From NCBI RefSeq assembly GCF_000275865.1, contig NZ_CM001555.1, positions 1,349,621 through 1,388,885 of the forward strand: a DNA stretch of 39,265 nt, in the 5' to 3' direction. The translations under genes were made by a program, and so were the position numbers. Positions 17,755 through 26,771 of the stretch are shown in pieces; position 1 is the first letter of the stretch, and each line of letters opens with the position of its first letter. Under the pieces are notes generated by a model that had not been told where the DNA came from, did no database searches, and saw only the letters and a program-made list of their open reading frames with translations. Source of the stretch: Methanofollis liminatans DSM 4140. Lineage in GTDB: Archaea > Halobacteriota > Methanomicrobia > Methanomicrobiales > Methanofollaceae.

Positions 17755-20505
17755 GTGACCGAAAAAACCGACCCACCTGTAGCGGTGCCCTGGCACGCCC
17801 TGCCCATCGACGAGACGTATGAGCGGCTGAGCACCGGTTCCCGCGGCCTCTCCTCGGAGGAGGCCGCCCGCCGGCAGAAGCAGTACGGCAAAAACGTCCT
17901 GCCGGCCGCACGACCCCCCGGCCTTGCTGAGATCGTCCTCCACCAGTTTAAAAGCCCCCTGATCTACATCCTCCTCGTCGCCGGCGTCATCTCCGTGCTG
18001 ATCGGCGATGTAAAAGACGCCGGGTTCATCATGCTCGTCGTCCTCATCAACGCCGTCATCGGGACGGCACAGGAGTGGAAGGCCGAACAGAGCGCCCTCC
18101 AGCTCCAGATCCTCCTGCAGGTGATGGCGAGCCTCCGGCGGGACGACGCCTGGCGCTCCCTCCCTGCCGAGGAGGCGGTCATCGGCGACCTCGTGCTCCT
18201 GGAGTCGGGAAACCGGGTTCCTGCCGACATCAGGCTCCTGCACGCAGCCAACCTGACCGTCGACGAGTCGCTCCTCACCGGCGAGTCGGCCGCCGTGCAG
18301 AAGACGGTGGGGGTGCTCAGGGAGAAGATCCCGGTGAGCGACCGCTCCAACATGGCCTATGCAGGGAGCACGGTCGTGACAGGGCGGGGCTGCGGCGTGG
18401 TCACCGGGACCGGGACCAGGACCGAGGTGGGGATGATCGCCCGCGCCGTCTCAGGGACCGAATCGGCAAAACCCCCGCTCCTGATCAGGATGGAGGAGTT
18501 CTCCCGCAAGGTGGGCATCCTGATCATCGCCGCAAGCATGGTGATGGCCGCCGTCGCCCTCTCGAAAGGAACGCCCCCGGTCGAGGTATTCTTCCTTGCG
18601 GTCGCCCTGGTGGTCGCGGCGATACCCGAGGGCCTCCCGGTGGCGATCACCGTCGCCCTCTCGATCGCCGCCTCCCGGATGGCCAGGCGCAACGTCATCG
18701 TGAGAAAACTGGCTGCCGTGGAGAGCCTCGGGAGCTGCACCACCATCGCCACCGACAAGACCGGGACGCTGACCGTCAACCAGCAGACGGTGCGGGTGCT
18801 TCTCATCCCCAAAGCAGAGCCGATCGAGGTGAGCGGCGCCGGCTACACCCCCGAGGGGGAGATCCTCCTCGCCGGCACCGCCGCCCTCCCGGCCCCGATG
18901 ACTGCCGCCGTCCGGCGCCTCGCCCGCGCCGCCGTGATCTGCAACGAGGGCTCCCTGTACAGGGAAGATAGCCAGTGGGTCCACCACGGCGACGCGATGG
19001 ACGTGGCGTTCCTCTCCCTCGCCTACAAGGCCGGCCTCGAACCTGACCGCGTCAGAAACTCGGTCCTGAAGGTGGCCGAAGTCCCCTTCGAATCAGAACA
19101 GATGTACGCCGCCGTCTATTATCGCGAGGAAGGCGACACCCAGGTCCATCTCGCCGTCAAGGGCGCACTCGAGGCGGTCCTCCCGCACTGCACCACCATG
19201 ACCACGGCAGACGGGGCCGTGCCCATCGACGCCGGCGCCGTGGAGCGCCACCTCGTCGACCTGATGGAGAACGGCTACCGCGTGCTTGTCGTCGCCGAAG
19301 GAACGGTTTCTTCGCCGCCGGGCGACGACCCTGAACTGGAGGACGCACGCCCCGACCTCTCCCTCCTCGGCCTGGTCGGGTTCATCGATCCCCTCCGGCC
19401 CGACGTCAGGGAGGCGGTCGGGGTGGCGCATGGGGCCGGCATCGACGTGGTGATGATCACCGGCGACCACCCGAGGACGGCGCTCACCATCGCCCGCGAA
19501 CTCGATATCGCCCGGTCCGTGGAGGAGGTGATGACCGGGCAGGAACTCGAAGGCCTGGGAGACCCGACCCTCCCCTCCTACGCGACGGCGATCGACCGTA
19601 TCCGGGTCTTCGCCCGCGTGAGCCCGGTCCAGAAGATGGAGATCGTCGACCTCATGGTCAGACGCGGCCATTTCGTCGCCGTCACCGGGGACGGGGTCAA
19701 CGACGCCCCGGCGCTGCGGCGGGCGAACATCGGCGTTGCCATGGGGTCAGGGACCGACGTGGCGAAGGACACCGCCTCCATGATCGTGACCGACGACAAC
19801 TTCTCATCCATCGTCGCCGGGGTCGAGGAGGGGCGGTTCGCCTACGACAACATCAGGAAGGCGACCTACCTGCTCATCTCCACCGGCCTCTCCGAGGTGG
19901 TGCTCTTCATCCTGGCCCTCCTTGCCGGCCTGCCCCTGCCGCTCCTGGCCGTGCAGCTCCTCTGGCTGAACCTGGTCACGAACGGCATCCAGGGGGTCGC
20001 CCTCTCCTTCGAGGCCGGAGAAGAGGGGGCGATGCAGAGACGGCCGCGGGACCCCGAAGAGGGCATCTTCAACGCCCTGATGCTGAAGGAGACCCTGCTC
20101 TCCGGGATGACCATCGGGATCGTCGCATTCTCCACCTTCTGGTGGCTGATCGGGACCGGCATGGAAGAGTCCGCCGCCAGGAACCTCCTCCTCCTGCTGA
20201 TGGTCCTCTTCGAGAACTTCCATGTCTTCAACTGCCGCTCGGAGTACCGCTCCCTCTTCAGGGTCCCGCTACGGAACAACACCGTCCTGGTCGCAGGCGT
20301 GGTCCTGATGCAGGGGCTGCACATCCTCTCCCTCCACGTCCCCTTCATGCAGGACCTCCTCGGCCTCGCCCCGGTGAGCCTTGAGCAGTGGTTCACCTGC
20401 CTGGTCGTCGCCGGCATCGTCATCGTCGTGATGGAGGCGTTCAAGTGGTTTGAATTCCGGAACGGGCCCGCAGGTGGGAGGGGGCAGGCAGGATCTGCCG
20501 CCTGA
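17755..20505 (+). CDS. P2-type cation-transporting P-type ATPase
   Basis: The protein has 916 residues and full P-type architecture. It has an N-terminal cation-ATPase domain, LLTGES actuator motif (about residue 175), the membrane motif AAIPEGLPVAIT, and phosphorylation site DKTGTLT (Asp334). A nucleotide-binding domain, MITGDHPRTA, and hinge GDGVNDAPALR (about 645-655) follow, with roughly ten membrane helices in all. The PEGLP motif places it near Ca2+/Na+ pumps (P2). In TM5/TM6 it has ISTGLSEVV and NLVTNGIQG. Compared with SERCA the Glu of TM5 and the first Asn of TM6 remain, but the TM6 Asp is Asn, so the transported ion is uncertain. The start is GTG at 17755 with GAGG at about 17744. 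It lies downstream of the CGGDPFC gene. Confidence 0.93.
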   Translation: MTEKTDPPVAVPWHALPIDETYERLSTGSRGLSSEEAARRQKQYGKNVLPAARPPGLAEIVLHQFKSPLIYILLVAGVISVLIGDVKDAGFIMLVVLINAVIGTAQEWKAEQSALQLQILLQVMASLRRDDAWRSLPAEEAVIGDLVLLESGNRVPADIRLLHAANLTVDESLLTGESAAVQKTVGVLREKIPVSDRSNMAYAGSTVVTGRGCGVVTGTGTRTEVGMIARAVSGTESAKPPLLIRMEEFSRKVGILIIAASMVMAAVALSKGTPPVEVFFLAVALVVAAIPEGLPVAITVALSIAASRMARRNVIVRKLAAVESLGSCTTIATDKTGTLTVNQQTVRVLLIPKAEPIEVSGAGYTPEGEILLAGTAALPAPMTAAVRRLARAAVICNEGSLYREDSQWVHHGDAMDVAFLSLAYKAGLEPDRVRNSVLKVAEVPFESEQMYAAVYYREEGDTQVHLAVKGALEAVLPHCTTMTTADGAVPIDAGAVERHLVDLMENGYRVLVVAEGTVSSPPGDDPELEDARPDLSLLGLVGFIDPLRPDVREAVGVAHGAGIDVVMITGDHPRTALTIARELDIARSVEEVMTGQELEGLGDPTLPSYATAIDRIRVFARVSPVQKMEIVDLMVRRGHFVAVTGDGVNDAPALRRANIGVAMGSGTDVAKDTASMIVTDDNFSSIVAGVEEGRFAYDNIRKATYLLISTGLSEVVLFILALLAGLPLPLLAVQLLWLNLVTNGIQGVALSFEAGEEGAMQRRPRDPEEGIFNALMLKETLLSGMTIGIVAFSTFWWLIGTGMEESAARNLLLLLMVLFENFHVFNCRSEYRSLFRVPLRNNTVLVAGVVLMQGLHILSLHVPFMQDLLGLAPVSLEQWFTCLVVAGIVIVVMEAFKWFEFRNGPAGGRGQAGSAA

Positions 20506-20608
20506 CGAGATCTGCCCGGGGGCATCACCGCCCCCTGACCGCACTTCAGGATGAGGAAAAATAGATCACGTTCTCAGGTGACATGGTCTTCAGGATGTGC
20601 TTAGAGTG

Positions 20609-21304
20609 ATGCAGGACTACAAAGAGACCTTTAAGGAGGTGCTGCAGGCCATCCTGCCCATATGTATTGTGATCCTGCTCCTTCAGGTATTCCTGCTGGG
20701 GGCATCGGTCACCGAGGTCCTCGAGTTCATCTTCGGGGCCGCCATGGTGGTCGTCGGGATCGCCCTCTTCCTGATCGGCGTCAAGATCGGCCTGCTCCCG
20801 ATGGGCGAGGCGATCGGGGCCGAGATGCCGAAGTCGGGTTCTTTGCTGATCATCGTCGCGGTAGCCTTTTTCTTCGGGTTCCTGACCACCGTCGCCGAAC
20901 CTGACGTGCGTGTCCTGACCATGATGATCGACTCTGTCTCAGGCGGCGGGATCGCACAGACCCCGACGATCCTGGTCATCGCCGTCGGGGTCGGTTTCTT
21001 CGTCGCGACCGCTATCCTGCGGATCATCTACAGGGTCCCGATCATGTACCTCCTTGCCGCGGGCTACGGCGGGGTGATCCTCCTCTCCTTCATCACGCCG
21101 CCCGAATTCCTCCCGATCGCCTTCGACGCCGGGGGCGTGACGACCGGGCCGATCACGGTCCCATTCATTCTGGCCCTGGGGGTCGGCGTCACCTCTGTCC
21201 TCGGGGGGCGTTCCGCACTCTCCGACGGGTTCGGGCTGATCGGGCTCGCCTCCATCGGCCCGATCCTGGGGGTCATGCTGATGGGGGTGGTCACGGCCCT
21301 ATGA
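20609..21304 (+). CDS. DUF1538 family membrane protein A
   Basis: The protein has 231 residues and about six or seven hydrophobic segments. Conserved DUF1538 features include FFGFLTTVAEPDVRVL in the middle and IAFDAGGVTTGPITVPFILALGVG near the end, with a Glu inside a membrane segment. The function of DUF1538 is unknown, but it is likely a transporter or channel. The ATG at 20609 is the most plausible start; GTG codons at 20597 and 20606 are in frame and no strong ribosome site decides. Its stop overlaps the next start. Together with 21301-22032 it appears to form a two-subunit version of proteins that elsewhere carry two DUF1538 units in one chain, which is from family knowledge, not visible here. 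Confidence 0.85.
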   Translation: MQDYKETFKEVLQAILPICIVILLLQVFLLGASVTEVLEFIFGAAMVVVGIALFLIGVKIGLLPMGEAIGAEMPKSGSLLIIVAVAFFFGFLTTVAEPDVRVLTMMIDSVSGGGIAQTPTILVIAVGVGFFVATAILRIIYRVPIMYLLAAGYGGVILLSFITPPEFLPIAFDAGGVTTGPITVPFILALGVGVTSVLGGRSALSDGFGLIGLASIGPILGVMLMGVVTAL

Positions 21305-22032
21305 ACGAGTTCTCTCCCCTGGAGGGGATCGGGCACGTCGTCCTCGACGTGATCCTCGCCCTGGCCCCTCTCGTCCTCTTCTTCATCGCCTACCAGGTCA
21401 TCTCCCTCAGGCTGCCGCGGGCCTATGTGACCAGCCTGTTCAAGGGGATCGTCATCACCCTGATCGGGATGGTGCTCTTCTTCCAGGGCGTCGCCATCGC
21501 CTTCATTCCCGCGGGGCAGAGCATCGGGGCGTACTTCGGGTCGTCCGACTACGTCTGGGCCCTCGTCCCCTTCGGGTTCTTCCTGGGGTTCCTGACGACC
21601 TACGCAGAACCGGCCGTGCGGGTGCTCTGCTACCAGATCGAGCAGTCGTCGAGCGGCTACATACGGGGGTCCCTGATCCTGTACACTCTCTCGTTCGGGG
21701 TGGCCGTATCGGTCGGCCTTGGCATGGCGCGTATCATCTATGGATTCTCGTTTCTTCCTCTCATGATCGCAGGATATATCCTGGCAATCCTTCTCATCAG
21801 GTTTGCCGACCGGGACTTCGTTGCGATCGCCTTCGACTCCGGGGGCGTTGCGACCGGACCGATGGCGGTGACCTTCCTGATGTCGCTGGCCGTCGGGGTG
21901 GCGGCGTCCTTGGAGGGGAGAGACGCTGTGACCGAGGGGTTCGGGCTCATCGCCTTCATCGCCCTGGCGCCGATCCTCTCGGTGCTGGTCCTCGGTATCC
22001 TCTTCAAACACAAAAAAGGTGGAAAGACATGA
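21301..22032 (+). CDS. DUF1538 family membrane protein B
   Basis: The protein has 243 residues and is homologous to its neighbour. It repeats the same signatures: FFLGFLTTYAEPAVRVL and IAFDSGGVATGPMAVTFLMSLAVGVA, with matching membrane topology. The ATG at 21301 overlaps the upstream stop (ATGA), so the two are translationally coupled. The tail FKHKKGGKT is basic and its stop overlaps the PII-like gene. Role unknown; probably pairs with protein A in a membrane complex controlled by the PII-like protein. Confidence 0.86.
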   Translation: MNEFSPLEGIGHVVLDVILALAPLVLFFIAYQVISLRLPRAYVTSLFKGIVITLIGMVLFFQGVAIAFIPAGQSIGAYFGSSDYVWALVPFGFFLGFLTTYAEPAVRVLCYQIEQSSSGYIRGSLILYTLSFGVAVSVGLGMARIIYGFSFLPLMIAGYILAILLIRFADRDFVAIAFDSGGVATGPMAVTFLMSLAVGVAASLEGRDAVTEGFGLIAFIALAPILSVLVLGILFKHKKGGKT

Positions 22033-22382
22033 TCTGTGAAGGGTGTAAAGACCTGATCGTCACGATTGTAAAGAAAGGCTGGGCCGACCAGGTGATGCAG
22101 GCGGCGCGCAATGCAGGTTCGGAAGGGGGCACGGTCCTGATGGGGCGGGGCACCGGCATCCACGAGATGCAGTCGTTTCTCGGCATTCCCATCGAGCCCG
22201 AGAAGGAGATCGTCCTGATCGTCGTGGAGCCCGAGCAGACCGACGGGGTGCTGGATGCGATCTCTGCAGCGGCCGAACTCGACCAGCCCGGTATGGGGAT
22301 TGCATTTGTCATCCCGCTCTCGCGGGTGGCAGGGCGGGTGCATATGCTCCGCAAAAAGGAGGAGGAGGAAGGGGGCCCATGA
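22029..22382 (+). CDS. PII-like signalling protein associated with DUF1538
   Basis: The protein has 117 residues. It has the ferredoxin-like PII fold by pattern: KDLIVTIVKKGWADQVMQAARNAGSEGGTVLMGRG at the start corresponds to beta1-alpha1-beta2, with the glycine-rich turn typical of PII. EKEIVLIVVEPEQTDGVLDAI corresponds to beta3-alpha2. The T-loop is short and has no evident uridylylation Tyr. The B-loop T-G-x-x-G-D-G-K of classical GlnB is replaced by LDQPGMGIAFV, so it is a PII-like protein and not GlnB/GlnK. The first cysteines (ICEGC) are unusual. It overlaps the DUF1538-B stop by four bases, so it most probably binds a nucleotide and gates those membrane proteins. That function is inference. 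Confidence 0.85.
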   Translation: MICEGCKDLIVTIVKKGWADQVMQAARNAGSEGGTVLMGRGTGIHEMQSFLGIPIEPEKEIVLIVVEPEQTDGVLDAISAAAELDQPGMGIAFVIPLSRVAGRVHMLRKKEEEEGGP

Positions 22383-22444
22383 ACGCCTGAGAGCGCCCGG
22401 GGGGAGGCGCCAGATTATTAACTCCCGGAGCGCAGGACTGGAAC

Positions 22445-23887
22445 ATGGAACAGTGGTCATCGCGGGCCGGGTTCATCCTGGCCGCCATCGGTTCCGCGGT
22501 CGGGATCGGAAACATCTGGCGGTTCTCCGCGGTGGTCGGGCAGAACGGCGGCGGGGCCTACCTGGTCCCCTACCTGATCGCCGTCTTCCTCTGCGCCTTC
22601 CCCCTCATGGTCCTCGAACTCGCCATCGGGCGGCACTTCCACGGCACCGTGGTCAGCGCCTTCAGGTCGGTGCGGCCGCAGTTCCGGATCATCGGATGGC
22701 TCCTCTGCGGCATCGTCTTTCTGATGCTCTCCTACTACCTGGTGATCACCGGGTGGACCCTCGGCTACGCTCTGACCTCCCTGGGGGGCGAGCCCCTCCC
22801 CTTCTCCCGTTTCACCGCTGGATGGCTTCCGGTCCTCCTGTTTGTGGTTGCCGCAGGGATCAGCGGGATCGTGGTATCCCTCGGGATCAGGGAGGGGATC
22901 GAGCGGATCTCGACCGTCCTGATCCCGGTCTCGGTAGGTATCCTGGTCGTTCTCCTGCTGTATGCGGCCACCATGCCCGGCTTTGTCCAGGGAGTCTCCT
23001 TCCTCCTCACCCCCGACTTCTCGGTCCTCGGCGACCCCCTCCTCTGGAGTGCGGCCTTCGGCCAGGCCTTCTTCTCCCTCTCGGTCGGCACCGGCATCCT
23101 GCTCACCTACGGGGCATATGTGCGCCCGGGGGAGAGCATCGCGGGTTCGGCCCTGATCATCACCCTTGCCGACGTCGGGGTGGCCCTCCTGGCCGGGATG
23201 GTGATCTTTCCTCTCGTCTTCTCCTTCGGGCTCGTCCCGACCATCGGGGCTGAACTGGCCTTCACCACCCTGCCTGCCGCCTTTGCCCTGATGCCGAACG
23301 GCTGGATCGTCGCCACGGCTTTCTTTCTGGTCCTCTTCTTTGCGGCGCTCACCTCCGCGCTCTCCATGCTCGAGGTGGGCGTGGCCGCCGTCCAGGAGTC
23401 GCTCGCCTGGTCGAGAGGACGGACGGCGGCACTGCTCACCGGCGTGGTCCTCCTCATCGGCCTCCCTTCGGCGCTCTCGTACAGTGCGGTCGACCTCAGG
23501 ATCGGGGGGATACGGGTGCTCGACTTCATGGACGAGACCGTAGGGGCCCTCGGCCTCCCGGTCGCCGCCATCCTCCTTGCGGTCGTCTTCACCTGGTTCA
23601 TACCCCCGCGGATACTGACCGAAGAGATCGGGCACTCAATCGCCCGCTTCGTCCATCCCCTCTGCAGGTTCGTCATCCCCGGCGTCCTGATGGTCACGAC
23701 CGGGGCCCGCCTCCTCGCCGGCCTCGACGATCCCGGCCTCCGAAACCTCCCGGGGAGCGCATTCATCGGGACGGTGCTGCAGGTCGAGGGGCTCGTTGCC
23801 ATCGTCCTGATCGTGCTGGTCATCACCCTTGCACTCTGCCGGTTCAGGGGGTGCCCGCTGGCCACCCGTATCCGTGGACGGATCTGA
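22445..23887 (+). CDS. Neurotransmitter:sodium symporter (SNF/NSS) family transporter
   Basis: The protein has 480 residues and about twelve membrane helices in the LeuT fold. The N-terminus carries the hallmark WSSRAGFILAAIGSAVGIGNIWRF, with the unwound TM1, and GGGAYLVPYLIAVF in TM2. TM6 reads AFGQAFFSLSVGTGILLTYGAY and TM8 FAALTSALSMLEV, the Na+-coupling regions. Substrate is probably an amino acid or related osmolyte but cannot be read from the sequence. It starts 62 bases after the PII-like gene with no strong ribosome site; AGATTATTAAC at about 22410-22420 could be a weak TATA box, so it may have its own promoter or belong to the DUF1538-PII operon. Confidence 0.93.
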   Translation: MEQWSSRAGFILAAIGSAVGIGNIWRFSAVVGQNGGGAYLVPYLIAVFLCAFPLMVLELAIGRHFHGTVVSAFRSVRPQFRIIGWLLCGIVFLMLSYYLVITGWTLGYALTSLGGEPLPFSRFTAGWLPVLLFVVAAGISGIVVSLGIREGIERISTVLIPVSVGILVVLLLYAATMPGFVQGVSFLLTPDFSVLGDPLLWSAAFGQAFFSLSVGTGILLTYGAYVRPGESIAGSALIITLADVGVALLAGMVIFPLVFSFGLVPTIGAELAFTTLPAAFALMPNGWIVATAFFLVLFFAALTSALSMLEVGVAAVQESLAWSRGRTAALLTGVVLLIGLPSALSYSAVDLRIGGIRVLDFMDETVGALGLPVAAILLAVVFTWFIPPRILTEEIGHSIARFVHPLCRFVIPGVLMVTTGARLLAGLDDPGLRNLPGSAFIGTVLQVEGLVAIVLIVLVITLALCRFRGCPLATRIRGRI

Positions 23888-24011
23888 GGAGCCTTCCGGG
23901 AAATAACCGGGCAATGTCTGCATCTGTCCCCCGGTCAATACCTTTATTCTTAAATGATCATCACTACGGTGAAGCAGAACCAGTTCAGGACGGCGGGGAG
24001 AAGATCAGGGT

Positions 24012-25796
24012 ATGATCGCGGTTACAGCCGACCAGGGGATCGTCTTTGTCACCCTCATTATCGCGCTCGTTCTCTTTGTGTACGGGCGCTGGCGCTACGA
24101 CATCGTCGCCCTCCTCTCCCTCTTCATCGTCACGCTGACCGGCGTCGTGGGGTGGGACGAGGCATTTCTCGGGTTTGCGAACCCGGCGGTGGTCACGGTG
24201 GCGGCCGTGCTGGTGATCAGCCGCGGCCTCCAGAACGCGGGCGTCGTGGACCAGATCGTCCACCGCCTCTCCGGGGTGGGAGACGGGCCAGAAACGCAGG
24301 TCTCCCTCCTCACCGGGATTGTCACGGCGTTCTCCGCCTTCATGAACAACATCGGTGCCCTTGCCCTGCTCCTGCCGGTGGGCCTGCGGATGGCGCGAAA
24401 GAGCGGCACGCCCCCGTCCGTGCTCCTGCTGCCGCTCGCTTTCGGCTCATGTCTTGGAGGGCTGATCACCCTCATCGGCACGCCGCCCAACATCATCATC
24501 GCTGCAATCCGGGCCGAACACACCGGCGAACCGTTTGCGATGTTCGATTTCACACCGGTCGGTCTTGCCGTCGCCGTCGCCGGCGTTCTGTTCATCTCCC
24601 TCATCGGGTGGCGCCTGGTCCCGAAGAGGGCAGGGCCCTCCTCCCGCGAAGACCTCTTCGAGGTGAAGAATTACCTGACCGAGGTCCGCGTCACCGAAGA
24701 CTCAAAACTCGCCGGGGCGTCCCTGCGCGAGATCGAGGAGAAGACCGGGGCCGACGTGGCGATCGTGCACCTCGTGCGGGGGGAGACGATCAGGCCGGCC
24801 CCGTACCGCTACGAGGTCGTCAGGCCCGGCGACATCCTCATTGTCCGGGCCGATTCCGACGACTTAAAGACGTTCATCGACCTCTCCGGGTTTGAACTGG
24901 CCGAAGGCGTGGAGGTGAAGAGCGACACGCTGGGCTCGGGCGACGTGACCCTGATGGAGGCGATGGTCCAGCCTGATTCCCCGGTTATCGGGAGAAAAGT
25001 GCGCGACCTCTCTATCAGGTGGCGTTTCGAGGTGAACCTGCTGGCCGTCGCACGGCAGGGCGAACGGTTGAGAAAGCGTCTCCAGCAGGTCAGGTTCGAG
25101 GTCGGCGACGTCCTCCTCCTCCAGGGCACGCCCGGCACCCTGCAGGAGGCGATGAAGGCGCTCGGGTGCCTCCCCCTTGCCGAGCGGGGGCTGAAGATCG
25201 GAGAGCCTCAGCGGATCATCCTTGCAGTAGGAATCTTCGGGTTCGCGATCGCCATCGCCGCCGTGGGCCTCGTCCCGATCCAGGTCATCTTTCCGATCGC
25301 CGCCGTCGTCATGGTGCTCGCCTCGCTCATATCCCTGCGCGAGGTCTACGAGAGCATCGACTGGCCGGTGATCGTCCTCCTCGGGGCCCTGATCCCGGTC
25401 GGGCACGCCCTGGAGAGCACCGGCGGCGCCCGACTGATCGCCTCCACCCTGCTCGGCCTCCAGGGTCAGGTCCCTGTCGAGGTGATTCTCATCGTCCTGC
25501 TGGTGGCGACGATGTTCCTCTCGGACTTTATCAACAACGCCGCAACCGCCGTTCTGATGGCGCCCATCGGGGTCAGTCTTGCCGGCGGGCTTGGCGTATC
25601 GACAGACCCGTTCCTGATGGCGGTTGCCGTGGGAGCCTCATGCGCATTTCTCACACCCATCGGGCACCAGTCAAACACCCTTGTCATGGGGCCGGGCGGG
25701 TTGCGGTTCGGTGATTACTGGCCTCTGGGTCTCCCTCTCGAAGCGATAATCGTGGCTGTAGGTATCCCCCTCATCCTCTACGTCTGGCCGCTCTGA
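24012..25796 (+). CDS. SLC13/DASS-type permease with two RCK_C (TrkA-C) domains
   Basis: The protein has 594 residues. The N-terminal membrane part (about 1-205) shows FMNNIGALALLLPVGLRMA and LIGTPPNIIIAAI, the SNNT-like hairpin motifs of the DASS/ArsB superfamily. Two soluble RCK_C-like domains follow at about 217-300 and 305-395, with GASLREIEEKTGADVAIVHL and RYEVVRPGDILIVRA in the first. The C-terminal membrane half has FLSDFINNAATAVLMAPIGV and AFLTPIGHQSNTLV. Such proteins move carboxylates, sulfate or other anions with Na+ or H+; the substrate is unknown. A possible TATA box (CTTTATTCTT) lies near 23940-23951. The gene is unlinked by overlap to the SNF gene. Confidence 0.9.
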   Translation: MIAVTADQGIVFVTLIIALVLFVYGRWRYDIVALLSLFIVTLTGVVGWDEAFLGFANPAVVTVAAVLVISRGLQNAGVVDQIVHRLSGVGDGPETQVSLLTGIVTAFSAFMNNIGALALLLPVGLRMARKSGTPPSVLLLPLAFGSCLGGLITLIGTPPNIIIAAIRAEHTGEPFAMFDFTPVGLAVAVAGVLFISLIGWRLVPKRAGPSSREDLFEVKNYLTEVRVTEDSKLAGASLREIEEKTGADVAIVHLVRGETIRPAPYRYEVVRPGDILIVRADSDDLKTFIDLSGFELAEGVEVKSDTLGSGDVTLMEAMVQPDSPVIGRKVRDLSIRWRFEVNLLAVARQGERLRKRLQQVRFEVGDVLLLQGTPGTLQEAMKALGCLPLAERGLKIGEPQRIILAVGIFGFAIAIAAVGLVPIQVIFPIAAVVMVLASLISLREVYESIDWPVIVLLGALIPVGHALESTGGARLIASTLLGLQGQVPVEVILIVLLVATMFLSDFINNAATAVLMAPIGVSLAGGLGVSTDPFLMAVAVGASCAFLTPIGHQSNTLVMGPGGLRFGDYWPLGLPLEAIIVAVGIPLILYVWPL

Positions 25797-25916: not shown

Positions 25917-26771
25917 CTATTGCTTCAGCACAAGGATGGGCCGTTGCGTTCTCCGCGCCACGTACGAGACCTTGCTCCCGAGCAGGGACGTCAATATCCC
26001 CCTCTGCCCGGTTGCTTTCATGACGATGAGCGAGACGTCCTCACTCTCTGCAAGGGAAAGGATCGCTTCCTCGGCACTGCCGGCGCGGACCCGGATCTCC
26101 GCGGGGATCTGGTGCCTGACGAAGGCATCTCTCATCGCCTCAAGCCGTTTCTGTGCATCGTCGACGCTTGCCTGCACTTCCTCGTGCGAGTCGCCGGTGG
26201 TCACGACATGAACGAACGTCGCCTTCTGAATCCACGGGATCTTATGGAGGCAGAGGCCCCCGACCTCCGGCTCTGAAAAATCGGTGGCGATCAGGACGTT
26301 TGAAAATAATTCCGGAAGAATATCAGCTCTTTCCCCTGAGGCCAGACCGCCCGGATCCGGTGCATGAACGAGGAGGAGATCGGTCGTCCCATAGTGGAGC
26401 ATGTCCGATGCAACGCTCCCCAGCAGCAGGGCTTCGATGACGCTCCGACCCCGTCTGCCCATCACGATGAGAGAGCTGCCTTCTCTTGCAGCAACCTCTT
26501 TAATGGCATCGGCGATGGTGCCCCCCCTGATGTCCTCGACGAGGGTTCTGATCGGTACAGTCTCCAGTTCAAGATCTTTTTTCACCTCTTCAAGGCGCAA
26601 TCTCGCATAGTCCACCTGGGGGTCAAAGCCGTCAGGGCCTTTTGATGGATGTTTATTATACAGGACGTGAAGAAGCACGATCTGACGAATGCCCGGAATC
26701 TGGCGGAGGCACCGGACCGCATACCTGGAATCTTCGGAAAAATCATACGGGACTAAAATGTCTCTGAACAT
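25917..26771 (-). CDS. Tandem universal stress protein (UspA) domains
   Basis: The protein has 284 residues made of two UspA domains. The first (about 1-140) starts MFRDILVPYDFSEDS and has the ATP-binding motif G-x2-G-x9-G-S as MGRRGRSVIEALLLGSVA. The second (about 158-284) starts FSNVLIATDFSEPE and ends MKATGQRGILTSLLGSKVSY, where the motif is shifted but recognisable. Such tandem Usps are cytosolic ATP-binding proteins linked to stress and transporter control. Proximity to the SLC13 permease is convergent, so no operon link is implied. The start is ATG at 26771, divergent from the GNAT gene. Confidence 0.9.
   Translation of the reverse strand: MFRDILVPYDFSEDSRYAVRCLRQIPGIRQIVLLHVLYNKHPSKGPDGFDPQVDYARLRLEEVKKDLELETVPIRTLVEDIRGGTIADAIKEVAAREGSSLIVMGRRGRSVIEALLLGSVASDMLHYGTTDLLLVHAPDPGGLASGERADILPELFSNVLIATDFSEPEVGGLCLHKIPWIQKATFVHVVTTGDSHEEVQASVDDAQKRLEAMRDAFVRHQIPAEIRVRAGSAEEAILSLAESEDVSLIVMKATGQRGILTSLLGSKVSYVARRTQRPILVLKQ

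Follow-up and report, generated by a model that had tools for sequence, protein, structure and literature searches.

AmtB-GlnK is a known case of a dedicated PII protein encoded next to the membrane transporter that it serves: GlnK is a classical PII with a full ATP/2-oxoglutarate site, AmtB is a parallel trimeric channel that sequesters GlnK, and the pair acts in nitrogen control. Another group, PII-NG, is linked with CusA-type metal efflux genes. In the SbtA-SbtB system, an inverted-repeat transporter and a partner of PII-like fold are encoded in one operon, and the T-loop of SbtB, which extends ~20 Å, inserts into SbtA (PMC8352866). On the transporter side, functional cloning in E. coli KNabc yielded UmpAB of Halomonas zhaodongensis, which makes this strain tolerant of salt and alkali again. 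Full function requires both genes, the two proteins co-immunoprecipitate as a heterodimer, and assays revealed Na+(Li+,K+)/H+ antiport that depends on pH (PMC5484666). UmpAB also served as a K+/H+ control (PMC5996927). The DUF606 family provides a series of forms that comprises a dual-topology single gene, an oppositely oriented pair, and a fused two-domain protein (PMC3962082). Here, we analysed a 39,265-nucleotide stretch of the genome of the archaeon Methanofollis liminatans DSM 4140 (NZ_CM001555.1, positions 1,349,621 to 1,388,885; this whole stretch is referred to as the window), in which two overlapping genes of the DUF1538 family, to which UmpAB belongs, lead into a gene for a PII-like protein. 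We propose that the PII-like protein gates an antiparallel cation/H+ antiporter assembled from the two DUF1538 halves, A and B, and that all three genes encode one machine, a reading that we consider probable, though with clear reserve.

The window unit resembles AmtB-GlnK in pairing a membrane transporter with a PII encoded beside it, and departs from it in ligand site, transporter architecture and the attachment to nitrogen control; its PII-like gene is linked with DUF1538 rather than with the efflux genes of PII-NG. Resemblance to SbtA-SbtB extends to the shared operon, the PII-like fold and, for SbtA, the inverted-repeat build, but SbtA belongs to a transporter family other than DUF1538, and in place of the inserting loop of SbtB, the window protein has a T-loop that is shorter than that of GlnK and bears a fixed EPEKE motif. 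The closest correspondence is to UmpAB: the Pfam family is the same, two homologous genes overlap, seven transmembrane segments are predicted for each product, and the C-terminus of B is hydrophilic. UmpAB differs in having no reported PII, and the opposite orientation of its halves is not discussed in the available text of that report (PMC5484666); the window proteins also score far below the UmpAB-specific cut-offs detailed below.

The three genes lie on the + strand. DUF1538-A, the UmpA-like half, occupies 20609..21304 (PF07556, 3e-69), DUF1538-B, the UmpB-like half, 21301..22032 (PF07556, 2.1e-68), and the 117-residue PII-like protein is encoded at 22029..22382 (PF00543, 5.7e-10). At both junctions, 21301..21304 and 22029..22032, the sequence ATGA carries a start ATG and a stop TGA that overlap in bases, which together with the Pfam assignments confirms the coupled three-gene unit noticed in the initial annotation. 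The listed open reading frame (ORF) of A, 20597-21304, opens at GTG 20597; ATG 20609 is preferable, as this is the Met with which homologues start. Both halves match practically nothing short of the full family profile, A with 233 bits over positions 1-211 and B with 230.2 bits over 2-211 of 211 (gathering score, 22.6), and the PII-like protein reaches 39.9 bits (cut-off, 25). The closest named homologue of B derives from a Methanomicrobiales metagenome-assembled genome (locus L031; 69% identity). Scanning the source genome identified a single DUF1538 pair and five PII domains, the top two at 103 and 95 bits and two adjoining at 540.5-541.3 kb; the PII-like protein of the window is the weakest of the five, at 39 bits. 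Chance overlap of adjacent genes was ruled out by the recurrence of the gene order, which lies far beyond chance because it returns in two phylum-scale surveys and in 80 named loci.

To these surveys, of 392 Halobacteriota and 299 Bacillota genomes, we applied profile searches, the PII-like profile having been built from the PII-like proteins that adjoin DUF1538 in related genomes. Among the Halobacteriota, DUF1538 was detected in 61/392 genomes, the PII-like protein in 60/392, and both in 59; put differently, 59/61 DUF1538-bearing genomes possess the PII-like protein as compared to 1/331 of the others. The Bacillota numbers were similar (DUF1538 in 101/299, PII-like in 107/299, both in 100; 100/101 versus 7/198). 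Fisher p-values for these co-occurrences take no account of kinship. In the Halobacteriota, 69/71 PII matches fall on the same strand within 600 nucleotides downstream of a DUF1538 match, and the PII gene directly follows 63/69 DUF1538 clusters. The named loci are the top 80 out of at least 546, ranked by their similarity to an alignment with the B half of the window at its head; 30 of them led to bacterial genomes, 28/30 of which encode the PII-like protein. Plasmid records with DUF1538 carry it in 9/9 cases, adjoining in the three whose annotation was inspected, where it is called a 'P-II family nitrogen regulator'. Pairwise distances among A+B proteins correlate with those among their PII partners (r 0.79 over 107 loci, where 1000 permutations gave at most 0.07), also inside the three architecture classes (r 0.71-0.88); together with the linkage, this correlation indicates that the three genes evolve as a unit. 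By these comparisons of sequence, the PII-like protein is a near-obligate, dedicated partner of DUF1538. Searches of the open-access literature brought up no publication recognisable as making this link. The 14 named model genomes that served as controls all lack DUF1538, which may be why the family was overlooked.

The exceptions to this linkage are few (genomes and loci are given by our own G and L numbers). Six Halobacteriota clusters lack a directly following PII: those of G044, G078, G271 and G374, the last at a contig end, and the second pair in the double arrays of G344 and G392. DUF1538 without any PII occurs in G271, at a contig end, and in G078, with a match below the family cut-off, and PII without DUF1538 in G049, a fragment. 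At L141 (G044), the PII gene is displaced 2.7 kb downstream of the B gene with ORFs in between, candidates for a transposase to judge by the flank read in L015. L138 and L139 (G344 and G392) hold two DUF1538 pairs in tandem with a single PII gene between them, and one PII may be shared by two transporters there; three consecutive DUF1538 matches precede one PII at L117 (G279) and G362:C18. In the Bacillota, the genomes G433, G437, G481, G555, G612, G637 and G654 lack DUF1538 and show weak matches to the PII-like profile that may represent remnants or a sister family of PII, and G488 has a weak DUF1538 match. A gene for a YitT membrane protein follows the DUF1538 pair at L076.

We next consider the membrane proteins. 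Average hydropathy, a charge-blind measure, displayed seven peaks, and the counts of Lys plus Arg (K+R) alternate along the segments, with the phase reversed between A and B. The window halves conform: from the N-terminus through loops L1 to L6 to the C-terminus, K+R counts are 3, 0, 1, 0, 1, 0, 1 and 0 in A, predicted N-in/C-out, and 0, 3, 0, 1, 0, 2, 1 and 4 in B, predicted N-out/C-in with a basic C-terminus. The K+R bias is negative in 124/124 A halves and positive in 124/124 B halves when loop limits were set with the charge columns visible; a repeat count, with segment centres found blind to charge, returned negative bias for 124/124 A and positive bias for 123/124 B. Values range from -13 to -2 in A and from 0 to 20 in B, the median absolute bias of the pairs being 7, and fused A-B proteins show the same bias as split pairs. 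Eleven single-gene forms have biases of -4 to +2, a range that touches those of the pairs; a twelfth candidate, L137 (bias +7), was dropped as its contig ends ~90 nucleotides upstream, although the rank test of the bias of the single-gene forms still includes it. The A and B halves are predicted to be ANTIPARALLEL.

By the positive-inside rule, the opposite K+R biases would place A N-in/C-out and B N-out/C-in, and with these orientations the linker of a fused A-B protein would be outside. An odd number of transmembrane segments, opposite K+R bias within pairs, single-gene forms of small bias, and 41 fused proteins are the kinds of evidence by which dual-topology families are recognised, and an antiparallel A+B pair is strongly implied by them. 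DUF1538 exhibits the same series as DUF606, i.e., singles with little bias, oppositely biased pairs, and fused proteins; it differs in the seven transmembrane segments predicted for each unit and in its soluble PII-like partner, which is duplicated in part of the family. The antiparallel build of the DUF1538 antiporter family appears to be undescribed in the literature searched. The suggestion of the initial annotation that A and B form the two halves of a single transporter gained support from the opposite charge bias, the fused homologues and the published heterodimer.

Conserved polar residues recur at equivalent places in both halves. The motifs quoted in the initial annotation are present, FLTTVAEP and FLTTYAEP as well as IAFDAGGVTTGP and IAFDSGGVATGP. 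Across the aligned DUF1538 domains, the Glu of AEP (20897..20899 in A, 21607..21609 in B) is Glu in 276/277, the intramembrane Arg (21020..21022 and 21730..21732) is Arg or Lys in 276/277, and the Asp of FD-x-GGV (21125..21127 and 21835..21837) is Asp in 277/277; single, split and fused forms alike keep the set. One such Glu, Asp and Arg/Lys set per half is as expected for a pseudo-symmetric, repeated ion site. An AlphaFold2 model of L020, a fused homologue from the genus of the window (predicted local distance difference test, pLDDT, 88.7; predicted template modelling score 0.87), has no clear relative in the PDB, with a best Foldseek E-value of 0.025 at a probability of 0.20 and a best VIA Z-score of 5.1. 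The GltPh/EAAT/DASS elevator folds gave VIA Z-scores of 3.7-5.1 over ~110-130 residues only, each half weakly matching the same EAAT/GltPh region at Z ~3.7, a match not relied on here. No sequence match to any PDB chain was found either. The attempt to identify the transporter fold from structure gave no usable result and was set aside.

The arrangement of halves and partners was compared across 113 distinct loci, leaving out L032 and L126 (short), L041, L050, L111 and L112 (one domain), and L117 (three domains). Split A and B genes account for 72/113 loci, 46 with one PII, 21 with two PII (16 of these in a single ORF) and five with none, the latter comprising two contig ends, G044, and two true absences. 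The A-B proteins are fused at 41/113 loci, 40 of which carry two PII domains, joined in a single ORF at 37 loci, and the remaining one of which stops at a contig edge; all 40 fused transporters with downstream sequence thus have two PII domains, whereas one or two accompany split pairs. Along the A+B tree, a single switch between split and fused forms was seen, as compared to three changes in the number of PII. Fused A-B proteins with tandem PII also occur in the related methanogens L020 (G008), L021 (G018) and L150-L152, and split and fused systems are both present in G029 and G034. The fused forms L020, from the genus of the window, and L021 branch within clostridial sequences, a placement suggestive of transfer. 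When 85 of the domains were placed in an unrooted tree, A formed one group (Shimodaira-Hasegawa-like approximate likelihood ratio test, SH-aLRT, 99), B another (100), and the single-gene forms (81) sat on the branch between the two clades. These single DUF1538 genes are likewise followed by a PII, in three Halobacteriota operons (L134-L136) and eight Bacillota ones (L160-L166, L171).

The fold of the PII-like protein is recognisable from its model. The AlphaFold2 prediction (pLDDT 84.0) matches structures of GlnK, PII and SbtB, with a Foldseek E-value of 4.6e-7 to 2j9d and a VIA-align Z-score of 11.2 to 1hwu_E (root mean square deviation 2.9 over 84 residues); the model thus points to membership of the PII superfamily with the ferredoxin-like PII fold intact. 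In methanogen GlnK, ATP is contacted by Thr29, residue 38, Gln39, Gly87, Lys90, Arg101 and Arg103, with Phe92 flanking the adenine, and 2-oxoglutarate by Gln39, Arg9 and Lys58 (PMC8395244). We followed these places through 76 aligned partner proteins of 173 distinct domains, using the second domain where there were two. On the adenine side, the equivalent of Thr29, Thr35 (22131..22133, +), is Thr in 76/76 and the Phe92 place is Phe in 73/76; the Gly87 place is Gly in 65/76. The phosphate side is altered: Gly102 (22332..22334, +) stands at the Arg101 place in 76/76, and the Lys90 place is Ile, Val, Leu or Met in 76/76. The Arg103 place is Arg in 5/76 only. At the Gln39 place stands H45, or G43 in another alignment, and Lys is kept at the Lys58 place or one residue away in 75/76. 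The T-loop is ~5-6 residues shorter than that of GlnK, with an alignment uncertainty of two residues, and ends in EPEKE; Glu58 and Lys59 of this motif (22200..22205, +), at the base of the shortened loop, are each conserved in 75/76.

Taken together, the PII fold and the adenine side look intact and the phosphate clamp appears gone. Because neither K90 nor R101 of the classical phosphate site is ever retained, the ligand is probably not ATP plus 2-oxoglutarate but another nucleotide, with AMP, ADP, cyclic AMP or cyclic di-AMP (c-di-AMP) as candidates. The different ligand suggested in the initial annotation fits a dedicated partner with changed ligand residues, and the classical B-loop is indeed absent, LDQPGMGI standing in place of TGxxGDGK. 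The uridylylation site is likewise missing as claimed, but its loss is not distinctive since the GlnK of the same genome (L154, the only true GlnK obtained from loci L154-L157) also has Trp instead of Tyr there. Tested at Gln39, Lys90, Arg101 and Arg103, the family does not qualify as classical GlnB/GlnK. Nor was close kinship to SbtB found when the family profile was searched against the PDB, where SbtB chains (E ~0.045 over 39 positions) rank below many classical PII proteins; the top match, 9p1x, retains the classical B-loop and is not a family member. A role in classical nitrogen control was rejected, the four other PII proteins of the genome scoring much better and this one lacking the classical ligand residues. 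A c-di-AMP cyclase domain in the source genome says nothing specific about the ligand, being present in 11/14 control genomes too. In the tandem PII of fused systems, Thr35 is present in 10/40 first domains as compared to 40/40 second domains, and the first domain is degenerate where the second is invariant (e.g., L020:561-1400), which hints at a division of labour, one domain for the ligand and the other for the partner.

Ion-linked genes on the same strand line up around the unit from 17755 to 25796. Upstream lies a P-type cation ATPase (17755-20505), and downstream an SNF sodium symporter (22445-23887) and a CitMHS carrier with TrkA-C domains (24012-25796), followed on the opposite strand by a universal stress protein (25917-26771). 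These ion-linked neighbours fit a role in ion handling.

A model for the unit can be outlined. One coupled unit encodes A, B and the PII-like protein; the homologous A and B, with seven predicted transmembrane segments each, would insert in opposite orientations as an antiparallel heterodimer, each half contributing one putatively intramembrane Glu (AEP), Asp (FD-x-GGV-x-TGP) and Arg/Lys. By analogy with UmpAB, monovalent cation/H+ exchange is the most likely activity of the pair, with Na+, Li+ and perhaps K+ as the cations. The initial annotation had called the substrate unknown, a statement already outdated as UmpAB, of the same Pfam family, was reported as a Na+(Li+,K+)/H+ antiporter in 2017; overall, its interpretation is partly supported, with the core strengthened and the substrate claim corrected. 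The PII-like protein, presumably a trimer, would then dock on the cytosolic face of the transporter, where its ligand would raise or lower activity; docking and gating are proposed on account of the linkage and the AmtB-GlnK and SbtA-SbtB precedents (PMC8352866).

Several observations weigh against this model. Against the UmpA/UmpB equivalog profiles NF041627 (cut-off 490) and NF041628 (500), A scores 138.5 and 112.8 and B 116.6 and 94.2, so that the substrate is transferred within the family and does not follow from membership; as the transporter model lacks a clear PDB relative, its fold favours no particular substrate. UmpAB worked in E. coli without a PII, which is thus not needed for basal activity, and the available text of that report contains no mention of 'PII' or 'P-II' and describes the cloned fragment without an ORF after umpB (PMC5484666). 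The Bacillaceae Sutcliffiella deserti and Metabacillus lacus (L046, L076) keep the pair with no PII in the genome. An ORF fusing PII to DUF1538, which would have been direct proof of partnership, occurs in none of the loci examined, and binding, docking or transport involving the PII-like protein is reported nowhere in the literature searched.

The same observations bear on what else the PII-like protein could be. It might no longer sense a ligand and, instead of gating, serve the antiporter as a constitutive subunit for structure or assembly, as the loss of the K90 and R101 equivalents in 76/76, along with most other phosphate-site residues, the near-obligate linkage, and the constant presence of two PII domains with fused transporters, in the manner of a stoichiometric subunit, would allow; given that UmpAB is active in E. 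coli without PII and that two genomes lack one, we consider this unlikely. Signalling could also run in reverse, with the state of the transporter capturing or releasing a PII-like protein that acts on another cytosolic target. Sequestration of GlnK by AmtB is an established example, and at every locus examined the PII-like protein is soluble and encoded apart from the transporter; with no second constant companion gene seen among the partly scanned neighbours, and with PII tightly co-inherited with the transporter, this is highly improbable. Finally, the transporter may carry something else, for instance bicarbonate together with Na+ or an organic anion, with the PII-like protein as sensor of the corresponding metabolite in the manner of SbtB with SbtA; the antiport of UmpAB would then be a side activity or specific to Halomonas. 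UmpAB is the sole assayed DUF1538 member in the literature searched and is distant (138.5 versus 490 bits), SbtB as a PII-like protein binds a Na+/bicarbonate symporter (PMC8352866), and the SNF and CitMHS neighbours are Na+-linked solute carriers. Yet the conserved residues within the membrane are acidic plus one base, suiting a cation/H+ exchanger, and DUF1538 ranks within the top 20 Pfam families of a model of growth pH, beside the pH-adaptation predictors MnhB, MrpF, TrkH and KdpA (PMC13255231), and we see little chance of a different substrate. A PII-gated, antiparallel cation/H+ antiporter remains our preferred reading.

More tentatively, and with doubts outweighing confidence, DUF1538 can be viewed as a widespread class of antiparallel cation/H+ antiporters that arose from a dual-topology ancestor and is controlled by its own EPEKE-type PII. 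This partnership would be older than the A/B duplication, because single-gene members also have a PII, and a PII without the phosphate clamp would link an adenine-nucleotide or second-messenger signal, with c-di-AMP a candidate in archaea and Bacillota, to pH/Na+ balance. DUF1538 would offer a complete DUF606-like series, from a presumably dual-topology single gene to an antiparallel pair to a fused protein, along which the copy number of a cytosolic partner can be traced. PII-controlled transporters are already known; here, such control would fall on an antiporter family. If true, salt and pH homeostasis would join the short list of directly PII-controlled processes, the reach would extend to about one sixth of the sampled Halobacteriota (61/392) and one third of the sampled Bacillota (101/299), and a PII subfamily annotated on plasmid records merely as 'P-II family nitrogen regulator' would acquire a likely function.
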